Part shown: piece after piece, positions 4,954 to 13,759 of the stretch
Position numbering within the stretch: the first letter of the stretch is position 1
Layout: every line of letters starts with the position of its first letter
Assembly (NCBI GenBank): GCA_028689995.1
Contig: JAQVCB010000011.1
Location: 1-47,823 of the forward strand
Origin: Candidatus Gastranaerophilales bacterium
GTDB taxonomy: Bacteria > Cyanobacteriota > Vampirovibrionia > Gastranaerophilales > UBA9579
Direction: 5' to 3'
DNA: 47,823 bases
Program-made: the position numbers and the translations under genes
The notes under the pieces: model-generated
What the model was told of the DNA's origin: nothing
Seen by the model: only the letters and a program-made list of their open reading frames with translations
Databases searched by the model: none

Positions 4954-5014
4954 GCTTTTAAAAATTAATAGTATTAAGTATTTTTAATTCTATTTTGTAA
5001 AATCGGAAAATTTA

Positions 5015-5070
5015 TTGCGAATATCACAAATATAACTTATACTAAAGTTAGGGAAAACTATACTAAAGTT
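5015..5070 (+). promoter_or_regulatory. Candidate promoter with tandem 12-bp repeats
   Basis: TTGCGA (5015-5020) and TATACT (5038-5043) are 17 bases apart, a sigma70-like arrangement. The -10 box is also the start of a 12-base unit TATACTAAAGTT that recurs exactly at 5059-5070, 21 bases later (two helical turns), each copy followed by a G/A-rich run. This could be an operator pair for a repressor. The nearest downstream frame is the 40-residue membrane peptide at 5131. No experimental support. Confidence 0.45.
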
Positions 5071-5130
5071 GGAGAGAGTCTAAATTAACTTTTTTACAAA
5101 CTTATAATGCTGAACAAGAGGGCGCTATAT

Positions 5131-5253
5131 ATGCAGAAAGTGACTATGTTCGTTATTGGCTTTTTTATTATACTATTTGTTTTTATTCCTCTATTAAGTG
5201 CTATTCAAAATGGCTTTAATTCAACAGATGGTTTTTACGGAAATAATATATGA
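5131..5253 (+). CDS. 40-residue single-pass membrane peptide
   Basis: An ATG frame preceded by AGAGGG with an eight-base gap. It encodes a peptide with a hydrophobic segment over residues 6-25 (VIGFFIILFVFIPLL within it) and a polar C-terminus. The good ribosome site, the upstream promoter-like sequence and the lack of any other gene between rpsA and the ilv leader support a real small gene, but there is no homology evidence. It could be a membrane toxin-like, stress or lineage-specific peptide. Downstream to 5343 I see only AT-rich DNA without a clear terminator. Confidence 0.5.
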   Translation: MQKVTMFVIGFFIILFVFIPLLSAIQNGFNSTDGFYGNNI

Positions 5254-5343
5254 AGAATTTTTTTATAATTAAGCAATTTTTTCAGGTCTTGTGTTTTTAA
5301 TATGATATATGTTAAAGTTTTTTAATAATAGTAAAATTTAAAC

Positions 5344-5372
5344 TTAACAATTTTTTATTTCTAATTTATACT
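5344..5372 (+). promoter_or_regulatory. ilv operon promoter (sigma70 type)
   Basis: TTAACA (5344-5349) and TATACT (5367-5372) are separated by 17 bases; each differs from consensus at one position. Transcription would start near 5379, about 29 bases before the leader peptide ATG. Confidence 0.75.
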
Positions 5373-5407
5373 ATAAGCTACAATTAATTAAAGGTATTTT
5401 AAATAAA

Positions 5408-5485
5408 ATGTTCAAGATCAATAACGTAATTATTAACTTAATGGTTCTCGTGATTATTATTAGCACGGGTCAGTTGGGTTTTTAA
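5408..5485 (+). CDS. ilv leader peptide (branched-chain amino acid sensing)
   Basis: A 25-codon frame ending 26 bases before an intrinsic terminator that precedes ilvD. Residues 7-18 read VIINLMVLVIII, so ten of twelve codons in the core specify Ile, Val or Leu, the end products of the operon below it. This is the composition expected of an attenuator peptide, as in the enterobacterial ilvGMEDA and ilvBN leaders. Ribosome stalling in this run when charged tRNA is scarce would leave the 3' end of the frame (GGGTC and GGGTT) free to form the antiterminator. The ribosome site is weak: AAGG at 5391-5394, thirteen bases upstream. It does not resemble a stable protein and is too short to have been found by length alone. 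Confidence 0.85.
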   Translation: MFKINNVIINLMVLVIIISTGQLGF

Positions 5486-5553
5486 TTTTTTGATCATAAA
5501 AATAAATTCAACCCGCAGACCCGAAAACGAAGTCTGCGGGTCTTTTATTTTGG
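5467..5553 (+). promoter_or_regulatory. ilv attenuator: antiterminator/terminator switch
   Basis: Terminator: ACCCGCAGAC (5511-5520) pairs perfectly with GTCTGCGGGT (5532-5541), loop 11, followed by a T-rich tract to 5553. Antiterminator: GGGTC (5467-5471) can pair with GACCC (5518-5522), and GGGTT (5476-5480) with AACCC (5510-5514). The same 5' arm of the terminator is therefore used in two exclusive structures. The GGGTC/GGGTT strand lies inside the last codons of the leader peptide, so a ribosome that reaches the stop codon covers it and favours termination, while one stalled on the Ile/Val/Leu codons leaves it free and favours read-through. The two pairings are seen in the sequence; the mechanism is inferred. 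Confidence 0.85.
5511..5548 (+). terminator. Conditional intrinsic terminator in ilv leader
   Basis: A ten-pair perfect GC-rich stem (5511-5520 with 5532-5541) and a trailing CTTTTATTTT. It lies between the leader peptide and ilvD, 51 bases before the ilvD start, where an unconditional terminator would make no sense. Confidence 0.9.
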
Positions 5554-5591
5554 CTAAAATATTAGTTTGACAATAGATAAAGGAGAATACA

Positions 5592-7262
5592 GTGAGAAGC
5601 GACAGAATCAAAAAGGGAATTGACAGAGCACCACATAGAGGTCTACTCTATTCTGTCGGTTTGACACAGAATCAACTTTCAAAACCGTTTATAGGAATAG
5701 CAAGTAGCTTTTCCGATCTTGTTCCAGGTCATTCAGGTATGAGGGATCTTGAAAGAATGATAGAAAAGGGAATACATACTGGTGGAGGGCATTCTTTTAT
5801 TTTTGGATTACCAGCTGTTTGTGACGGTATTGCTATGGGTCATGAAGGAATGAAATATTCTCTTCCATCAAGAGACCTCATAGCGGATAGTGTTGAGTCT
5901 GTCGCTTCTGCACATGCTTTAGATGGGCTTGTTCTCCTCACTAATTGTGACAAAATTACTCCAGGCATGTTAATGGCAGCTTCACGTCTTGATATCCCTT
6001 GTATAGTTGTGTCGGCAGGACCAATGCTTGAAGGATTCTGTGAAGGAATGGAACTCTCTTTGATAAGAGGTACTTTTGAGGCAGTAGGTCAATTTAAAGC
6101 GGGAAAAATATCAGAAGAACAGCTTCAAAAGATGGAGATGAACTCTTGTCCAGGGGTCGGTTCTTGTCAGGGACTTTATACAGCAAACACTATGGCTTGT
6201 CTAACTGAAGTTATGGGAATGAGCCTTCCGGGTTGTGCAACATCTGCTGCAGTCAGTGCTAAAAAGAAAAGAATAGCCTTTGACAGTGGAGTCAGAGTAG
6301 TAGATCTGGTTAGAGAGAACGTCCTTCCTTCGTCGATAATAACCAGAGATTCAATAAGAAATGCAGTTGTTGCTGATTTAGCTCTCGGGGGTTCAACAAA
6401 TTCAGTTTTACATCTTCTTGCTATAGCGCAGGAAGCAGGAGTTGATATAACTCTTAAGGATTTTGAAGAACTAAGTTTTAAAGTCTCCCAAATTATAAAG
6501 CTGGATCCTTCCAGCACGCTTACAATGACTGATTTTGATAAAGCTGGGGGTATACCGGGTGCTCTTAAAAATCTTAAATCTTTACTTGTTGATACTAAAG
6601 GAGTTTCAGGTCAATCGCTTTATTCAACTGTAGAGAATGCATGGGTAAATACAGAGATCATTCGTACTCTTGATAATCCTATGACAAGTAATCCAGGGCT
6701 TGCTGTGCTTTATGGAAATCTTGCACCATCTGGAGCAGTTGTAAAGGTTTCAGGTGTTGATAAGGAATGCCTTAAATTTCAGGGAACGGCAAAGACATTT
6801 AACAGTGAAGAAGAGACAATGGAGGCAATTAATTCAGATCAGATCAAAGCTGGTGATGTTGTTGTTATTCGATATGAAGGGCCAAAAGGAGGCCCTGGCA
6901 TGAGAGAAATGCTTTCGCCTACTTCTACAATAGTTGGCAAAGGATTAGGAAAACAGGTTGCTCTTATTACTGACGGAAGATTTTCAGGAGGGACAAGAGG
7001 GCTTTGTATAGGACATATGTCACCGGAAGCAGCAGCAGGCGGCTTGATCGGACTGGTTCAAAATGGTGATCAGATAAGCATTGATATAGAAAAAAGAACT
7101 GTTGAATTATTGGTTTCAGAAGAAGAGATAAGTAAAAGAAGAGAATCATGGAGTAAAGTGCCGGCTAAAGTAACAAAAGGGTACCTTGCAAGGTATTCAA
7201 GAACAGTTAGTTCAGCTGACAAAGGTGCCGTTAGTGGCATACTAGACTGTAAGGAGGCATAG
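5592..7262 (+). CDS. ilvD: Dihydroxy-acid dehydratase
   Basis: IlvD dehydrates 2,3-dihydroxy-isovalerate and 2,3-dihydroxy-3-methylvalerate to the 2-keto acids, the third common step of Val and Ile synthesis. The 556 residues match the family length. The conserved [10 protein letters not shown] (C119) and [11 protein letters not shown] (C192) cluster/active-site motifs are present. At the position of the third cysteine of [2Fe-2S] plant-type enzymes the sequence is [10 protein letters not shown], without Cys, as in the oxygen-sensitive [4Fe-4S] E. coli type; this cluster assignment is an inference. Start GTG at 5592 follows AAGGAG by six bases. First gene after the attenuator; ilvB begins two bases after its stop. 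Confidence 0.96.
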
Positions 7263-7263
7263 A

Positions 7264-8985
7264 ATGCTGCAAATGAATGAGGTGGATAAAAAAGTTTATA
7301 CAGGTGCTCAGATATTTTTAAAAAGCCTTGAAAAAGAAGGAGTTGAACATATTTTTGGAATTCCGGGCGGAATAATTCTTCCAATCTATGATGCTTTTCA
7401 TCAAAGTACCGTAAAACATATTCTTACAAAACATGAACAGGCAGCAGTTCATGCGGCAGAAGGCTATGCAAAATCAACAGGCAAAGTTGGAGTTGCTCTT
7501 GCAACTTCCGGCCCGGGCGCAACCAATACGGTTACAGGTTTAACAGATGCTTACTATGATTCAGTTCCTATAGTTGTATTTACAGGTAACGTTGCAACTT
7601 CAATACTAGGAAATGATGCCTTTCAGGAATCCGACATTGTAAGTATCACAAGAGCCTGTACTAAACATAATTATCTTGTAAGAGATGTAAAAGATCTTGC
7701 TGCAACTGTTAAAGAAGCATTCTATGTTGCTGCTTCCGGTAGACCAGGACCGGTACTGGTTGACCTTCCGAAAGATGTTATTATGGCTTCCTGTGAATTT
7801 AATTATCCTGAATCAATAAATCTCAGAGGATACAAGCCATATCCTGAAGTTAACGAACAATTAGTTCAAAGATGTATTGAGGAGCTTGTAGTCGCTAAAA
7901 AACCTGTTATATTATGTGGAGGCGGTGTTGTTTCCTCTAATTCACATCAGGAGCTGACTTTGTTTAGTAAAAAATTTGATATTCCTGTTGCTTCAACACT
8001 TATGGGACTTGGTGGATTTCCTGCGGCGCACAAAAACTTTCTGGGGTTTTCAGGAATGCATGGAAATTATTGGGCAAATTTAGCCATTTCAAATTCAGAC
8101 CTGCTTGTTATAGTCGGTTCGAGATTGAGTGACAGGCAGACAGGTGTGGTAAAAGAATATTGTCCTGAAGCTAAAATCATTCATATTGATATAGACCCAA
8201 CTTCATTAAATAAAAATGTGGATGTAGATTTTGATATTCAGGGTGATATAAAACAGGTTTTATCTATGTTTCTGAAAAATTCTGAATCAGTTAATCTTTC
8301 AGACAGCAAAAAGGAGGAAAGGGAACTTTGGTGGAGGCAAATAGCAGAAACAAAGTGTGAGTCTGTTAATATCAAAAATAATAATACGGCAGATGCAATG
8401 ACTCCCGGTGAAGTTATAGGAAAAGTTTATGAACTTGCGAAAAGTGATGCAATTTTTACAACTGAAGTTGGTCAGCATCAGATGTGGGCAGCGCAGCTTT
8501 TTAATAGTGATAATCCGAGAAGTTTTCTGACTTCAGGTGGTCTTGGAACAATGGGGTTTGGTTTTCCAGCAGCTTTAGGTGCGCAGATGGCAAATCCGGG
8601 TAGGCAGGTTATTGTTTTTGCAGGAGACGGAAGTATTCAGATGAATATTCAGGAACTTGTAACAGCAGTTACTTACGATTTACCGGTTAAAATTGTTATT
8701 GTAAACAATGGATATCTAGGAATGGTAAGGCAATGGCAGGGATTTATGTTTAACAGATATTCCCAGTCCAAAATATTTTCACCTGATTATATAACTCTTG
8801 CTAAAGCTTATGGAGCAAATGGTTTTGTTATTGATAAAAGTGAAGATTTAGAAAACACATTAAAAGATGCTTTGGCATGTCCAGGTGTTGCAATTATTGA
8901 TTGCAGAGTGAATGAAGAAGAAGATGTATATCCTTGGGTGCCAGTTGGTAAGGCAAACAGAGATATGTTAACGGAGGCAAAATAA
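7264..8985 (+). CDS. ilvB: Acetolactate synthase, large (catalytic) subunit
   Basis: A 573-residue ThDP enzyme that condenses pyruvate with pyruvate or 2-ketobutyrate, the committed step of Val/Leu and Ile synthesis. The N-terminal PYR domain shows GIPGGIILPIYDAF and the catalytic Glu in KHEQAAVHAAEGYAKSTG. The middle domain has LVDLPKDV and the VGSRLSDRQTG segment. The C-terminal PP domain has the ThDP motif beginning GDGSIQMNIQELVTA and ending VNNGYLGMVRQWQ. RBS GGAGG lies six bases before the ATG. The small subunit gene follows with a one-base overlap, so the two subunits are translationally coupled. Confidence 0.96.
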   Translation: MLQMNEVDKKVYTGAQIFLKSLEKEGVEHIFGIPGGIILPIYDAFHQSTVKHILTKHEQAAVHAAEGYAKSTGKVGVALATSGPGATNTVTGLTDAYYDSVPIVVFTGNVATSILGNDAFQESDIVSITRACTKHNYLVRDVKDLAATVKEAFYVAASGRPGPVLVDLPKDVIMASCEFNYPESINLRGYKPYPEVNEQLVQRCIEELVVAKKPVILCGGGVVSSNSHQELTLFSKKFDIPVASTLMGLGGFPAAHKNFLGFSGMHGNYWANLAISNSDLLVIVGSRLSDRQTGVVKEYCPEAKIIHIDIDPTSLNKNVDVDFDIQGDIKQVLSMFLKNSESVNLSDSKKEERELWWRQIAETKCESVNIKNNNTADAMTPGEVIGKVYELAKSDAIFTTEVGQHQMWAAQLFNSDNPRSFLTSGGLGTMGFGFPAALGAQMANPGRQVIVFAGDGSIQMNIQELVTAVTYDLPVKIVIVNNGYLGMVRQWQGFMFNRYSQSKIFSPDYITLAKAYGANGFVIDKSEDLENTLKDALACPGVAIIDCRVNEEEDVYPWVPVGKANRDMLTEAK

Positions 8986-9275
8986 TGAACGGAAAAACTT
9001 ACAAAAATACGCTGTATTTGCTCGTAGAAAATAAATTCGGAGCATTAGAAAGAGTAATCAGCACGTTTACTCTTAGGGGTTATAAAATTGAGAATCTTAT
9101 TTGTTCTCAAAATAAGGATACTGATCTTTATGATATTAAAATTGCCATAAATTGCACTGATCAGGATTTGGAAAAAATTGTCAAAATACTCCATAATCAA
9201 ATACATGTACTTGAAATTAAGTTAATGCTGAATGAAAATGATCAGGATTATTCAAAAATTGCATTGGCAAGTTAA
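8985..9275 (+). CDS. ilvN: Acetolactate synthase, small regulatory subunit (short form)
   Basis: A 96-residue ACT-domain protein. Residues 5-80 show the ACT pattern (TLYLLVENKFGALERVIST, RGYKIENLI, then YDIKIAIN). The subunit activates IlvB and carries feedback inhibition, usually by valine. It has only one ACT domain, like E. coli IlvN (96 residues) and unlike the ~160-170-residue IlvH type with an extra C-terminal domain that is usual in Cyanobacteria. Start ATG overlaps the ilvB stop (TAATG) and has GGAGG upstream at 8973-8977. Confidence 0.92.
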   Translation: MNGKTYKNTLYLLVENKFGALERVISTFTLRGYKIENLICSQNKDTDLYDIKIAINCTDQDLEKIVKILHNQIHVLEIKLMLNENDQDYSKIALAS

Positions 9276-9373: not shown

Positions 9374-10429
9374 ATGTCTGAAGTTCAAATGTATTACGAT
9401 AAAGATATTAATGTTGCACCAATTATGAATAAAAATGTTGCTGTTCTTGGGTTTGGAAGTCAGGGGCATGCACATGCGCAGAATCTTAAAGAATCAGGCG
9501 TTAAAGTTAAAGTAGGACTAAGAGAAGGTTCAAAATCAAAAGTTCTTGTTGAAGATGCAGGACTTGAATGTGTTTCATTTGAAGAAGCAGTTAAATGGGC
9601 GGATGTTGTAATGGTTCTTTTACCGGATACAGTTCATCGTGCTGTTTATGAAAAATATATCGCTGCAAATTTAAAAGATGGAATGTATTTAGGATTTGGA
9701 CATGGTTTTAGCATTCATTACAACGAAGTTGTTCCTCCTGCAGGGGTAAATACATTTTTAGTAGCTCCAAAGAGTCCCGGTCATCTTGTTAGAGCTGAAT
9801 ATAAAAGAGGAAGAGGAGTTCCTGCACTCGTTGGCGTTGGTCAAAACCCATCAGGAGATACTTTCGAAGTTGGACTTGCTTATGCTTCCTGTATAGGTTC
9901 AGGTACAGCCGGCATTCTTGAAACAACTTTCAAGGATGAAACAGAAACAGATCTTTTTGGAGAACAGGCTGTCCTTTGTGGAGGCACCACTGCTTTAATT
10001 AAAGCAGGATTTGAAACTCTTGTTGAAGCAGGTTATCCACCTGAAATGGCATATTTTGAATGTCTGCATGAATTAAAATTAATAGTTGATTTAATTTATC
10101 AGGGCGGAATTCAGGACATGCGTTATTCTATCAGTGATACGGCCAGATATGGCGATGTTACAACAGGACCAAAAATTGTAACTTCTGATACCAAAGATAC
10201 AATGAGGCAGGTACTTGCTGATATTCAATCAGGTAAATTTGCAAAAGAATGGATTGAAGAAAACAGAAATGGTCAGCCAAATCTTAAAAGAATGGTTCAG
10301 GAAGATAAAGAGCATCTTATTGAAAAAACCGGTCGCAGACTACGCGGTATGATGAGCTGGATAAATGATGATAATCTTATAAGCTCTAAAGAACGTGAGG
10401 TTGAAAAAAATGACGCATGCCGGACATAG
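9374..10429 (+). CDS. ilvC: Ketol-acid reductoisomerase (NADP+)
   Basis: IlvC isomerises and reduces acetolactate and acetohydroxybutyrate. The 351 residues fit the short class I enzyme, slightly long at the C-terminus (residues after about 335 are not conserved in the family as I know it). Seen: Rossmann motif GFGSQGHAHAQNLKESG; APKSPGHLVR; the metal-binding segment with ETETDLFGEQAVLCGG; and the helical C-terminal knot region with ECLHELKLIVDLIY. Start ATG has AGGAGGA seven bases upstream. It is 98 bases after ilvN; that gap is AT-rich with no obvious terminator. The 3' end overlaps ilvA by 20 bases. Confidence 0.95.
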   Translation: MSEVQMYYDKDINVAPIMNKNVAVLGFGSQGHAHAQNLKESGVKVKVGLREGSKSKVLVEDAGLECVSFEEAVKWADVVMVLLPDTVHRAVYEKYIAANLKDGMYLGFGHGFSIHYNEVVPPAGVNTFLVAPKSPGHLVRAEYKRGRGVPALVGVGQNPSGDTFEVGLAYASCIGSGTAGILETTFKDETETDLFGEQAVLCGGTTALIKAGFETLVEAGYPPEMAYFECLHELKLIVDLIYQGGIQDMRYSISDTARYGDVTTGPKIVTSDTKDTMRQVLADIQSGKFAKEWIEENRNGQPNLKRMVQEDKEHLIEKTGRRLRGMMSWINDDNLISSKEREVEKNDACRT

Positions 10430-11582
10430 AAATAATTCTTTAAACCAAAATTCTAATAAATGGCAATATATGGTAAAAAAGTCGATAAATCCCAGATTTA
10501 CTGACTGTGGTAAATTGAAATTTTCACAAAATACATTGTCGCTTGAAATTTATAGAAAAGTCAGTACACTTTTTGATTCAATACAAAGTGCCAGAACTGT
10601 TATGCTCAGATATAAATCTGATCTTTCGACAGTTGTGGGGCATGAGAATTATTGTATTACACCATTGACAGCTTCAAATAAGCTGCCAATGGTATTTTAC
10701 AAACGGGAAGATCTCACCTGTATAAAAGCTTATAAAATACGTGGTGCTATTTATCAGATGAGCAAAATTATAGAAGAAAATCATTCAACTAAATTGAATT
10801 TTGTTGCCGCATCGACCGGCAATCATGCTCTAGGAGTGCTCAAATCTGCTGAAATTTTACGAGTACCCGGAGTTACAATCTTTATTTCGGAAAGCGTTAC
10901 AGATTTTAAAAAGCAAAAGCTTGAAAACAGGGTTAATGATCTTAAGAAAAAGGGAATAAATGCTAATCTTGTTATAAAAGGTGAAAACTTCGATCAGACA
11001 AATAAATACGCTAAAGGTATTGTAGAAACAAATGAAGATACATATTATATAGATCCATATAATACGCATAATGCAGTAGCAGGACAGGGAACAATAGGAT
11101 TTGAAATTTTGACACAGCTTGAAAATCAGTTCTTTGATCCGGAGCTGCTTGAATATGATTATGAAAAACTTAAAAAGCTGAAAAAAATAACTGTTATTGT
11201 TCCGATAGGTGGTGGAGGCCTAATCTCAGGTATTGCTACAGCTATTTTAATGGGTATTCAAAGTTTTCCAAAATTCAAAAAACTGGATGTTTCTGTTGTC
11301 GGAGTAAAACTTGATGATTTGAATTCTGTATACGGTGATGCTATCAAGGTAAAAATTCCCGGAGAACATAATCAGGATTTGTTAAAATATCTGGTCAGCA
11401 GGCAAGTTGCAATAAACGATGTTGATATGAAAAAAGGAATGGATTTTATTTCAGATGATCTGGGTGTTCTTGTTGAAGGTGCCAGTTCAGGAACTTTAAA
11501 GCCTGTTCTTGAAGGTATAGTTCAGCCATCAGAAGAAAATGCCGTTATATGTGTTCTAAGCGGCGGAAATGTCCATTTTTAA
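10410..11582 (+). CDS. ilvA: Threonine ammonia-lyase, short form without regulatory domain
   Basis: A PLP fold-type II enzyme, 390 residues. Seen: the PLP lysine K109 in KAYKIRGAIYQM, the substrate loop STGNHALGV, the phosphate-binding GGGG at 267-270 (PIGGGGLISGIA), and the C-terminal VLSGGN motif near the end of the protein. It would deaminate threonine to 2-ketobutyrate, the Ile branch entry, which fits its place at the end of the ilv operon. It ends right after the catalytic domain, so the ACT-like C-terminal domain that senses isoleucine in biosynthetic IlvA is missing; instead there are about 85 unusual residues before the catalytic core. ATG at 10410 is preceded by TGAGG; a later in-frame ATG at 10470 is possible. 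A related serine/threonine lyase cannot be excluded. Confidence 0.85.
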   Translation: MTHAGHRNNSLNQNSNKWQYMVKKSINPRFTDCGKLKFSQNTLSLEIYRKVSTLFDSIQSARTVMLRYKSDLSTVVGHENYCITPLTASNKLPMVFYKREDLTCIKAYKIRGAIYQMSKIIEENHSTKLNFVAASTGNHALGVLKSAEILRVPGVTIFISESVTDFKKQKLENRVNDLKKKGINANLVIKGENFDQTNKYAKGIVETNEDTYYIDPYNTHNAVAGQGTIGFEILTQLENQFFDPELLEYDYEKLKKLKKITVIVPIGGGGLISGIATAILMGIQSFPKFKKLDVSVVGVKLDDLNSVYGDAIKVKIPGEHNQDLLKYLVSRQVAINDVDMKKGMDFISDDLGVLVEGASSGTLKPVLEGIVQPSEENAVICVLSGGNVHF

Positions 11583-12280: not shown

Positions 12281-13477
12281 TTAATTATAATGAATTTTTC
12301 CGTAGCCGCCAAGTGTATAGTATGGTATCAGGTCATTTTCAAGGGAAAGTGTAACCAAATTGGATTCGATACTGTTCTTTTTGTCAAATATTATTGAATT
12401 TATCTTTTCCAGATTTGTTTCGTCCAGATTTAAAACGGCTAATATTTTGTTAATTTTGTCACTTGAACAGAGTAACAGATTTGAATTTTTAATTGCATTG
12501 AAGTTAACGTTAATTAATGCAGGTAACTGATATTCTTTACCATTTTCTTTTGTTGAAACTGTTTTATTAAGAATATTTTGTTTTTTGTAATTTTTATCCG
12601 CTAAAGTAAGTTTATTAATATATTTCAAGTCAAAGGTAAATTTATCTTCGGCTAGAGTTTTCATATTATCAAATAAAATATCAATAAAATTTCTTTTGTA
12701 TAAAATATTTTTGGAATAATGGTTGAAATCAATAAATAACTTGAAGACAGTATTATTTTTGAGACATTCCTGATAAGTTGTATTTGTTAGTTTATACTTT
12801 AAATTTTTACTGTCGATTGGGCTGCCAACTTTATATAAAGTAAGATCTTTTGTATTTAAGCGGGATTCTGTGTAAATATTTGTACTTTCAATAATCTGTA
12901 AGTTTTCAAGCAGTTCGGTGTCTATATTAACGAGAAAATTTTCAAGCAGATGTTCGAAGATATGATTTTTATAAAAATTCTTTCTGTTATTGTAGTTGTT
13001 GCTATTATCAATATTGTCTAGTTCCTGTTTAATAATATCAAGTTGTTTGTTCGCATAATTATTAAATTCTTCATATTTTTTCTTGAAATAATTATAAATA
13101 AAAACTTTTTTAAAAAGATTTTTTAAATATTCACCTGAAATAAAAGGATTACCATTACAATCTTTTTGAAAATATAAATAATTTTCAATTTTTTTAAAAT
13201 TTACTATTTCAATATTATATTGGCTAATACTTTCAAGAAAACCTGTATTTAAAAGTCTGCAATTATAGAGCCATTTGCAGGTATTGTTATAACCGTTATC
13301 ACGAATATACAGGTTAAATTCTTGATAAAGATTTATTTTGGTTAATATCTCATAAAAAATCTTTTCTTTGATAATATAAACCTTATTTTCAAAAAGAATG
13401 GGTGGTATTAGATAGGTTTTTTTGTCGGAAATATGTGCAGGCGAAGACAAATAACAAAAAGTGTCAACTGTAATCAA
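12281..13477 (-). CDS. Orphan RAMP-like protein resembling CRISPR type III-A Csm5
   Basis: About 398 residues from TTG 13477 (GAGG nine bases upstream); a longer frame starts at TTG 13525, and no early in-frame ATG was seen. By eye the order of segments follows Csm5: an N-terminal strand and loop TFCYLSSPAHIS (family: LxPxHIGSG), then ENKVYIIKEKIFYEIL (family: KVYxIDxxKLxxxL), then NGNPFISGEYLKNLFKKVF (family: PyIPGSSIKGAIRTA), a DLTLYKVG strand, YQECLKNNTVFKLFID (family: ECIxxGTxFxxxIxI), and a glycine loop TLGGYGK near the C-terminus. Key glycines of the family motifs are replaced. No other cas gene or CRISPR array lies in the window. The gene is visibly more AT-rich than its neighbours and low-complexity Asn/Lys/Ile-rich, suggesting transfer or relaxed selection. 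Function unknown if it is not Csm5. Confidence 0.45.
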   Translation of the reverse strand: MITVDTFCYLSSPAHISDKKTYLIPPILFENKVYIIKEKIFYEILTKINLYQEFNLYIRDNGYNNTCKWLYNCRLLNTGFLESISQYNIEIVNFKKIENYLYFQKDCNGNPFISGEYLKNLFKKVFIYNYFKKKYEEFNNYANKQLDIIKQELDNIDNSNNYNNRKNFYKNHIFEHLLENFLVNIDTELLENLQIIESTNIYTESRLNTKDLTLYKVGSPIDSKNLKYKLTNTTYQECLKNNTVFKLFIDFNHYSKNILYKRNFIDILFDNMKTLAEDKFTFDLKYINKLTLADKNYKKQNILNKTVSTKENGKEYQLPALINVNFNAIKNSNLLLCSSDKINKILAVLNLDETNLEKINSIIFDKKNSIESNLVTLSLENDLIPYYTLGGYGKIHYN

Positions 13478-13759
13478 TCTTTCTATCCTCAATAATAATT
13501 TTAAACAAAAGTCTTCCAAGCTCAATTAAAACTCGAAAGACATATTATCTGGTAGGTTAAGTTTATTTAGTTTTTGAGAAGAATATCTTAGCTGATTTTT
13601 TATTAATTATTACTATGTAATCATAATAATTGAATATATGATGTTTTAACTTAACATATTTTCGGTTTTACTATTTATTTATATAAATGTTATAAAGTTT
13701 AATAATGTCAATTAATTAACAAATTTTATTTGCTTTATATGATGCGAGAAAATTGATTT

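Follow-up and report, generated by a model that had tools for sequence, protein, structure and literature searches.

The 47,823-nucleotide stretch of DNA analysed here, referred to as the window, corresponds to contig 98 in a MAG of 2.99 Mb (89% completeness, 6% contamination) from a Candidatus Gastranaerophilales gut bacterium (Melainabacteria, phylum Cyanobacteriota). A sequence-only reading had taken it for part of a Melainabacteria-like genome, and the relatives of its ilvD gene are indeed found in Gastranaerophilales MAGs. On the plus strand, the window carries an ilv operon with the gene order ilvD-ilvB2-ilvN2-ilvC-(ilvA-like):

5592-7262, + strand: ilvD, dihydroxy-acid dehydratase, GTG start (TIGR00110, 750 bits against a cut-off of 618)
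7264-8985, + strand: ilvB2, second acetolactate synthase large subunit (TIGR00118, 760 bits against a cut-off of 538)
8985-9275, + strand: ilvN2, acetolactate synthase small-subunit-like, 96 aa (33-40% identity to IlvN-sized frames of the order)
9374-10429, + strand: ilvC, ketol-acid reductoisomerase (TIGR00465, 415 bits against a cut-off of 226)
10395-11582, + strand: PLP-dependent enzyme resembling threonine ammonia-lyase (IlvA) (PF00291; IlvA models, 125 bits against a cut-off of 421)

The window's ilvB2 is only ~54% identical to every other copy in the phylum sample, which marks it as a second acetolactate synthase in this genome. Another ilvB-ilvN pair, on contig 113 (L223), resembles the pairs of the relatives and scores higher against the family model than the window's copy. 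A search for the origin of ilvB2 returned no close relative in 292 phylum genomes, or in plasmids (best match 48.5%). The PLP-dependent enzyme overlaps the end of ilvC and its matches start only at about residue 90; its start may lie further in, or its N-terminus may be unusual. On the minus strand, a 414-codon frame at 12281-13525 has no Pfam or NCBIfam match.

Leader features upstream of ilvD

The region between a predicted promoter and ilvD contains the following features, in order:

5344-5372, + strand: sigma-70-like promoter TTAACA-N17-TATACT (consensus scan, 10 of 12; top site in 5000-6000)
5390-5394, + strand: AAAGG, candidate Shine-Dalgarno sequence of the leader peptide, 13 nt before the ATG
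5408-5485, + strand: leader peptide frame MFKINNVIINLMVLVIIISTGQLGF, 25 codons, then stop (from translation; 12 of 25 codons Ile, Val or Leu)
5435-5456, + strand: segment 1, 5′ strand of the 1:2 hairpin (folding)
5438-5455, + strand: predicted control codons TTA ATG GTT CTC GTG ATT (Leu Met Val Leu Val Ile) (footprint folding model)
5461-5480, + strand: segment 2, partner of segment 1 or segment 3 (folding; the antiterminator uses 5466-5480)
5510-5523, + strand: segment 3, terminator 5′ arm and partner of segment 2 (folding)
5532-5541, + strand: segment 4, 3′ arm of the intrinsic terminator (folding)
5542-5551, + strand: U-rich tract CTTTTATTTT of the terminator (sequence; strict T-tail scan)

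The consensus-like promoter, the 25-codon frame and the perfect ten-pair terminator named in the sequence-only reading were all recovered. From the promoter, transcription is predicted to start at about 5379. The leader frame is preceded by a Shine-Dalgarno-like sequence at a somewhat long spacing, and ten of its twelve core codons (5426-5461, V I I N L M V L V I I I) encode Ile, Val or Leu. With ilvD, ilvB2 and ilvC exceeding their NCBIfam cut-offs, the genes that would be controlled match the pathway of these codons. The terminator hairpin (5511-5541, with 5511-5520 pairing with 5532-5541), followed by its U-rich tract, lies 50 bases upstream of the ilvD GTG. Two of the predicted control codons, CTC and GTG at 5447-5452, are rare, each making up 6% of the Leu and Val codons, respectively, in five window genes. 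Their rarity would make the wait of a ribosome more sensitive; as the same codons make up the core of the 1:2 hairpin, their choice may also be structural.

Competing pairings and the position of the ribosome

Folding yielded three mutually exclusive pairings, 1:2, 2:3 and 3:4. In the 1:2 hairpin, 5435-5442 pairs with 5473-5480 and 5447-5456 with 5461-5469 (-15 to -17 kcal/mol), which places CUCGUG at 5447-5452 opposite CACGGG at 5464-5469. In the 2:3 antiterminator, 5466-5471 pairs with 5518-5523, 5473-5474 with 5515-5516 and 5476-5480 with 5510-5514, with further, weaker A-U pairs beyond these main blocks. The first and last of these blocks bear out the earlier observation that an upstream strand pairs with the 5′ arm of the terminator at two places. 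The 3:4 terminator consists of its ten perfect pairs and two inner pairs. The comparison of energies that had been proposed gave -18.7 kcal/mol for the antiterminator versus -19.2 kcal/mol for the terminator. The fold of the whole 5379-5560 transcript (-45.1 kcal/mol, z = -4.6) contains the 1:2 hairpin. When the transcript was folded as it grows, 1:2 was present up to 5518, 2:3 took its place at 5524-5530, and 1:2 together with 3:4 formed from 5536 onwards.

To represent translation, the bases around the P site were kept unpaired as a stand-in for the ribosome, and the transcript was ended at 5538. E. coli ilvL, included as a positive control, showed no switch in the same simple equilibrium model, which is thus specific rather than sensitive. 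With its output used only for comparison with shuffled sequences and not over-read quantitatively, the probability of the terminator was 0.03-0.05 when the A site was on codons 5438-5453, and 0.98-1.0 without a ribosome, with a ribosome at the start or with a ribosome at the stop codon. Termination also resulted in the model when ribosomes waited at the early Ile codons, 5429 and 5432, or at the final pair, 5456 and 5459, and changing the footprint by a few bases moved the range of antiterminating codons by about one codon. This switching pattern was absent from all 160 codon shuffles and all 160 mononucleotide shuffles. In every state past 5540, the equilibrium model favoured the terminator, so that antitermination requires kinetic trapping of 2:3. 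In classical attenuators, the antiterminator is likewise assumed to hold kinetically.

Chance expectation and alternative readings

As the shuffle and genome-scan tests were devised after the observation, their numbers are descriptive: a frame with at least 10 of 12 Ile, Val or Leu codons arose in a fraction of 0.0002 of 5000 dinucleotide shuffles of the leader; the duplex of the leader with the terminator 5′ arm (-19.6 kcal/mol) had P = 0.011 against dinucleotide shuffles and P = 0.0025 against codon shuffles; and among 618 Shine-Dalgarno-started genes in 1.10 Mb of the window's genome, 12 had a leader terminator, nine had a Shine-Dalgarno-preceded frame rich in Ile, Val and Leu upstream, and only ilvD had both in order.

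Elsewhere in this genome, a terminator-like hairpin lies 130 bases upstream of a gene with an IMP dehydrogenase-like N-terminus (contig 28, L251:6284), and it may be a second premature terminator.

The hairpin before ilvD might instead be an ordinary terminator, perhaps working in both directions, that serves the upstream gene or convergent transcripts, with the Ile/Val/Leu-rich frame a by-product of AT-rich sequence. The small gene upstream (5132-5254) has no terminator of its own, whereas its counterpart in a relative has one shortly past the stop codon, and a scan of the minus strand also calls a terminator at 5542-5510. However, a promoter scan placed all plus-strand promoter-like sites upstream of the terminator and none between it and ilvD, so that transcripts from these sites into ilvD must cross it, and of the 618 genes, only ilvD, at the head of an ilv operon, has a promoter, Shine-Dalgarno sequence, frame, hairpin and terminator in combination. 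As for the frame, AT-rich sequence easily gives Ile and Leu codons, and other frames in the window reach 9-10 Ile, Val or Leu codons in 12, but the pairing between leader and terminator arm exceeds that of shuffled sequences and switching occurred in 0 of the 320 shuffles. We consider it unlikely that an ordinary terminator and a chance frame account for the element.

A premature terminator could also be controlled by a protein, a small RNA or the direct binding of a metabolite or tRNA rather than by a translating ribosome. The type of many leader terminators is unknown (PMC2965389), and alternative pairing by itself names no sensor; here, however, the leader frame fits the pathway, and the pairing segments lie inside this frame at distances compatible with a ribosome. 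The window has no Rfam match at threshold, which argues against a T-box or any known riboswitch, and altogether a sensor other than the ribosome seems very improbable. Specifically, the T-box model (RF00230) gave no match at the gathering score and none below it at E<=10, and among the Rfam amino-acid operon leaders (Leu, Thr, His, Trp), only Trp_leader appeared, with 14.6 bits against 41 required. The three-segment attenuator without a classical 1:2 hairpin that the sequence-only reading had favoured has real 2:3 and 3:4 pairings, but it is hardly credible, as 1:2 is the best fold of the leader alone (-15.2 kcal/mol for 5430-5490; stability matched by 0 of 1000 dinucleotide shuffles and 3.7% of codon shuffles) and, in the model, is what makes an idle or absent ribosome give termination.

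With the 1:2 hairpin present, the design is one of four segments, and the element has the sequence features that define a classical attenuator: a leader frame, a terminator, an antiterminator and a competing hairpin. Together, the in silico data support well the earlier suggestion that an ilv operon outside the Proteobacteria is under ribosome-mediated attenuation: probably, a classical four-segment attenuator sets expression of the ilvD-ilvB2-ilvN2-ilvC-(ilvA-like) operon according to how much Leu, Val and Ile tRNA is charged. The individual parts and their competing pairings come from sequence and folding; the ribosome control and physiological response that we infer from them would run as follows. 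RNA would start near 5379, and translation of the leader peptide would begin at 5408. When Leu, Val or Ile ran short, the ribosome would wait with its A site on a codon in 5438-5453 and cover segment 1, so that segment 2 (5466-5480) could pair with segment 3 (5510-5523), the terminator would be blocked and polymerase would continue into ilvD. With plentiful amino acids, the ribosome would reach the stop codon (5483) and cover segment 2, allowing the 3:4 terminator to form and the RNA to end near 5550. If the leader were untranslated, 1:2 and 3:4 would both form and transcription would end.

Relatives, origin and known systems

The evidence for the attenuator comes from a single genome, in a sample in which the genus is represented by one genome and the family by two. 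The nearest relative in this sample (G001, same family) shares the small upstream gene, followed by an ilvD of 76% identity. Upstream of this ilvD, the leader frame is absent and the sole terminator directly follows the small gene; the gene after ilvD lies on the opposite strand. None of 109 other ilvD upstream regions pairs a strong terminator with a Val/Ile/Leu-rich frame in the order of the leader, and a BLAST search of the leader DNA against 383 genomes of the order returned no homologous DNA, only short AT-rich matches of low-complexity appearance. A conserved family of ilvD leaders was accordingly rejected, being absent from the nearest relative, the 109 upstream regions and the 383 order genomes. 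In the leuA-like and ilvB leaders of 20-25 relatives, no Ile/Val/Leu-rich frame was paired with a terminator, aside from two frames with 7 Ile, Val or Leu codons in 10 near one leuA-like gene (L151), where the terminator lies upstream of the frames. Several family-2 relatives have a terminator upstream of ilvB, without an Ile/Val/Leu-rich frame.

At several other Gastranaerophilales ilvD loci (L071, L078 and L083; also at L080 and L085), an inverted repeat lies 30-60 bases before ilvD with a TAAAAT -10-like box in its loop, for example ACCCTTTCGTGATAAAATAAATATGAAAGGGT. It looks like a repressor operator at the ilvD promoter and may reflect a different control of ilvD in these relatives.

The sequence-only reading had named related ilvD leaders without the peptide, the terminator or the alternative pairing as grounds against it, and every relative examined is of this kind. 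This removes comparative support, including any from covariation, and points to a lineage-specific gain; it does not contradict the mechanism in this genome. Here ilvD is also the first gene of a rearranged operon that includes a second acetolactate synthase, so the attenuator seems, as far as the data go, specific to one lineage and is possibly convergent. We see an even chance that it arose recently and independently in one Gastranaerophilales lineage, with or after the capture of ilvB2-ilvN2, ilvC and the ilvA-like gene by ilvD, and that it is the first of its kind described in the Cyanobacteriota. If so, this would be a rare case in which the attenuator-free state, the relative's lone ilvD behind the same small gene, is still visible. 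A relative with the same small gene and ilvD but no element offers a concrete case for how such switches arise.

The mechanism itself is textbook knowledge from E. coli; what appears new is the lineage, for which we found no earlier report. The attenuators of E. coli ilvGMEDA (ilvL) and ilvBN (ivbL) have a mixed Leu/Val/Ile leader and 1:2, 2:3 and 3:4 segments, and control an acetolactate synthase operon, all of which they share with the element described here. The E. coli ilvL peptide, MTALLRVISLVVISVVVIIIPPCGAALGRGKA, has 32 codons, whereas the leader here has 25, with its stop codon just past segment 2. The operon order here is ilvD-B-N-C-A, the phylum is a different one, and no likeness of peptide or RNA was noticed by eye.

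As to novelty, leader peptides outside the Proteobacteria and Actinobacteria were new at the time of a 2010 survey (PMC2965389), and a 2016 survey reported no reliable evidence of attenuation in cyanobacteria (PMC4833913). The open-access literature yielded no earlier report of a leader peptide in Gastranaerophilales, and one in a subscription journal is possible. The expectation that the element would be new or little described thus stands for the lineage and falls for the three-segment version. A candidate in a non-photosynthetic sister lineage of cyanobacteria extends the range of the mechanism.

The earlier view that T-boxes do this job in Firmicutes was too narrow, as ilvD attenuators are present in Listeria (PMC5864092) and Staphylococcus aureus (PMC5794164). 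The Rli60 element of Listeria monocytogenes, a ribosome-mediated attenuator that has been tested experimentally, likewise lies directly before an ilvD-headed operon and has overlapping terminator and antiterminator; it differs in its 13-codon leader, its occurrence in Firmicutes and an added control by CodY, and in its description both alternative structures follow the peptide, whereas segment 2 of the present element is part of the frame (PMC5864092). In S. aureus, where suppressor mutations support the function, a leader peptide and a terminator also precede ilvD, but the peptide is Leu-rich and the antiterminator captures the poly-U tail without opening the stem, whereas here the 5′ arm of the terminator is taken (PMC5794164). 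In Actinobacteria, ilvB leaders are known or predicted (PMC1262725, PMC11857589). That of Corynebacterium glutamicum ilvBNC shares three hairpins (terminator, antiterminator and anti-antiterminator) and mixed BCAA codons, there MTIIRLVVVTARRLP, with the element in the window, and differs in its phylum, its nearly leaderless 15-codon peptide and its position before ilvB (PMC11857589).
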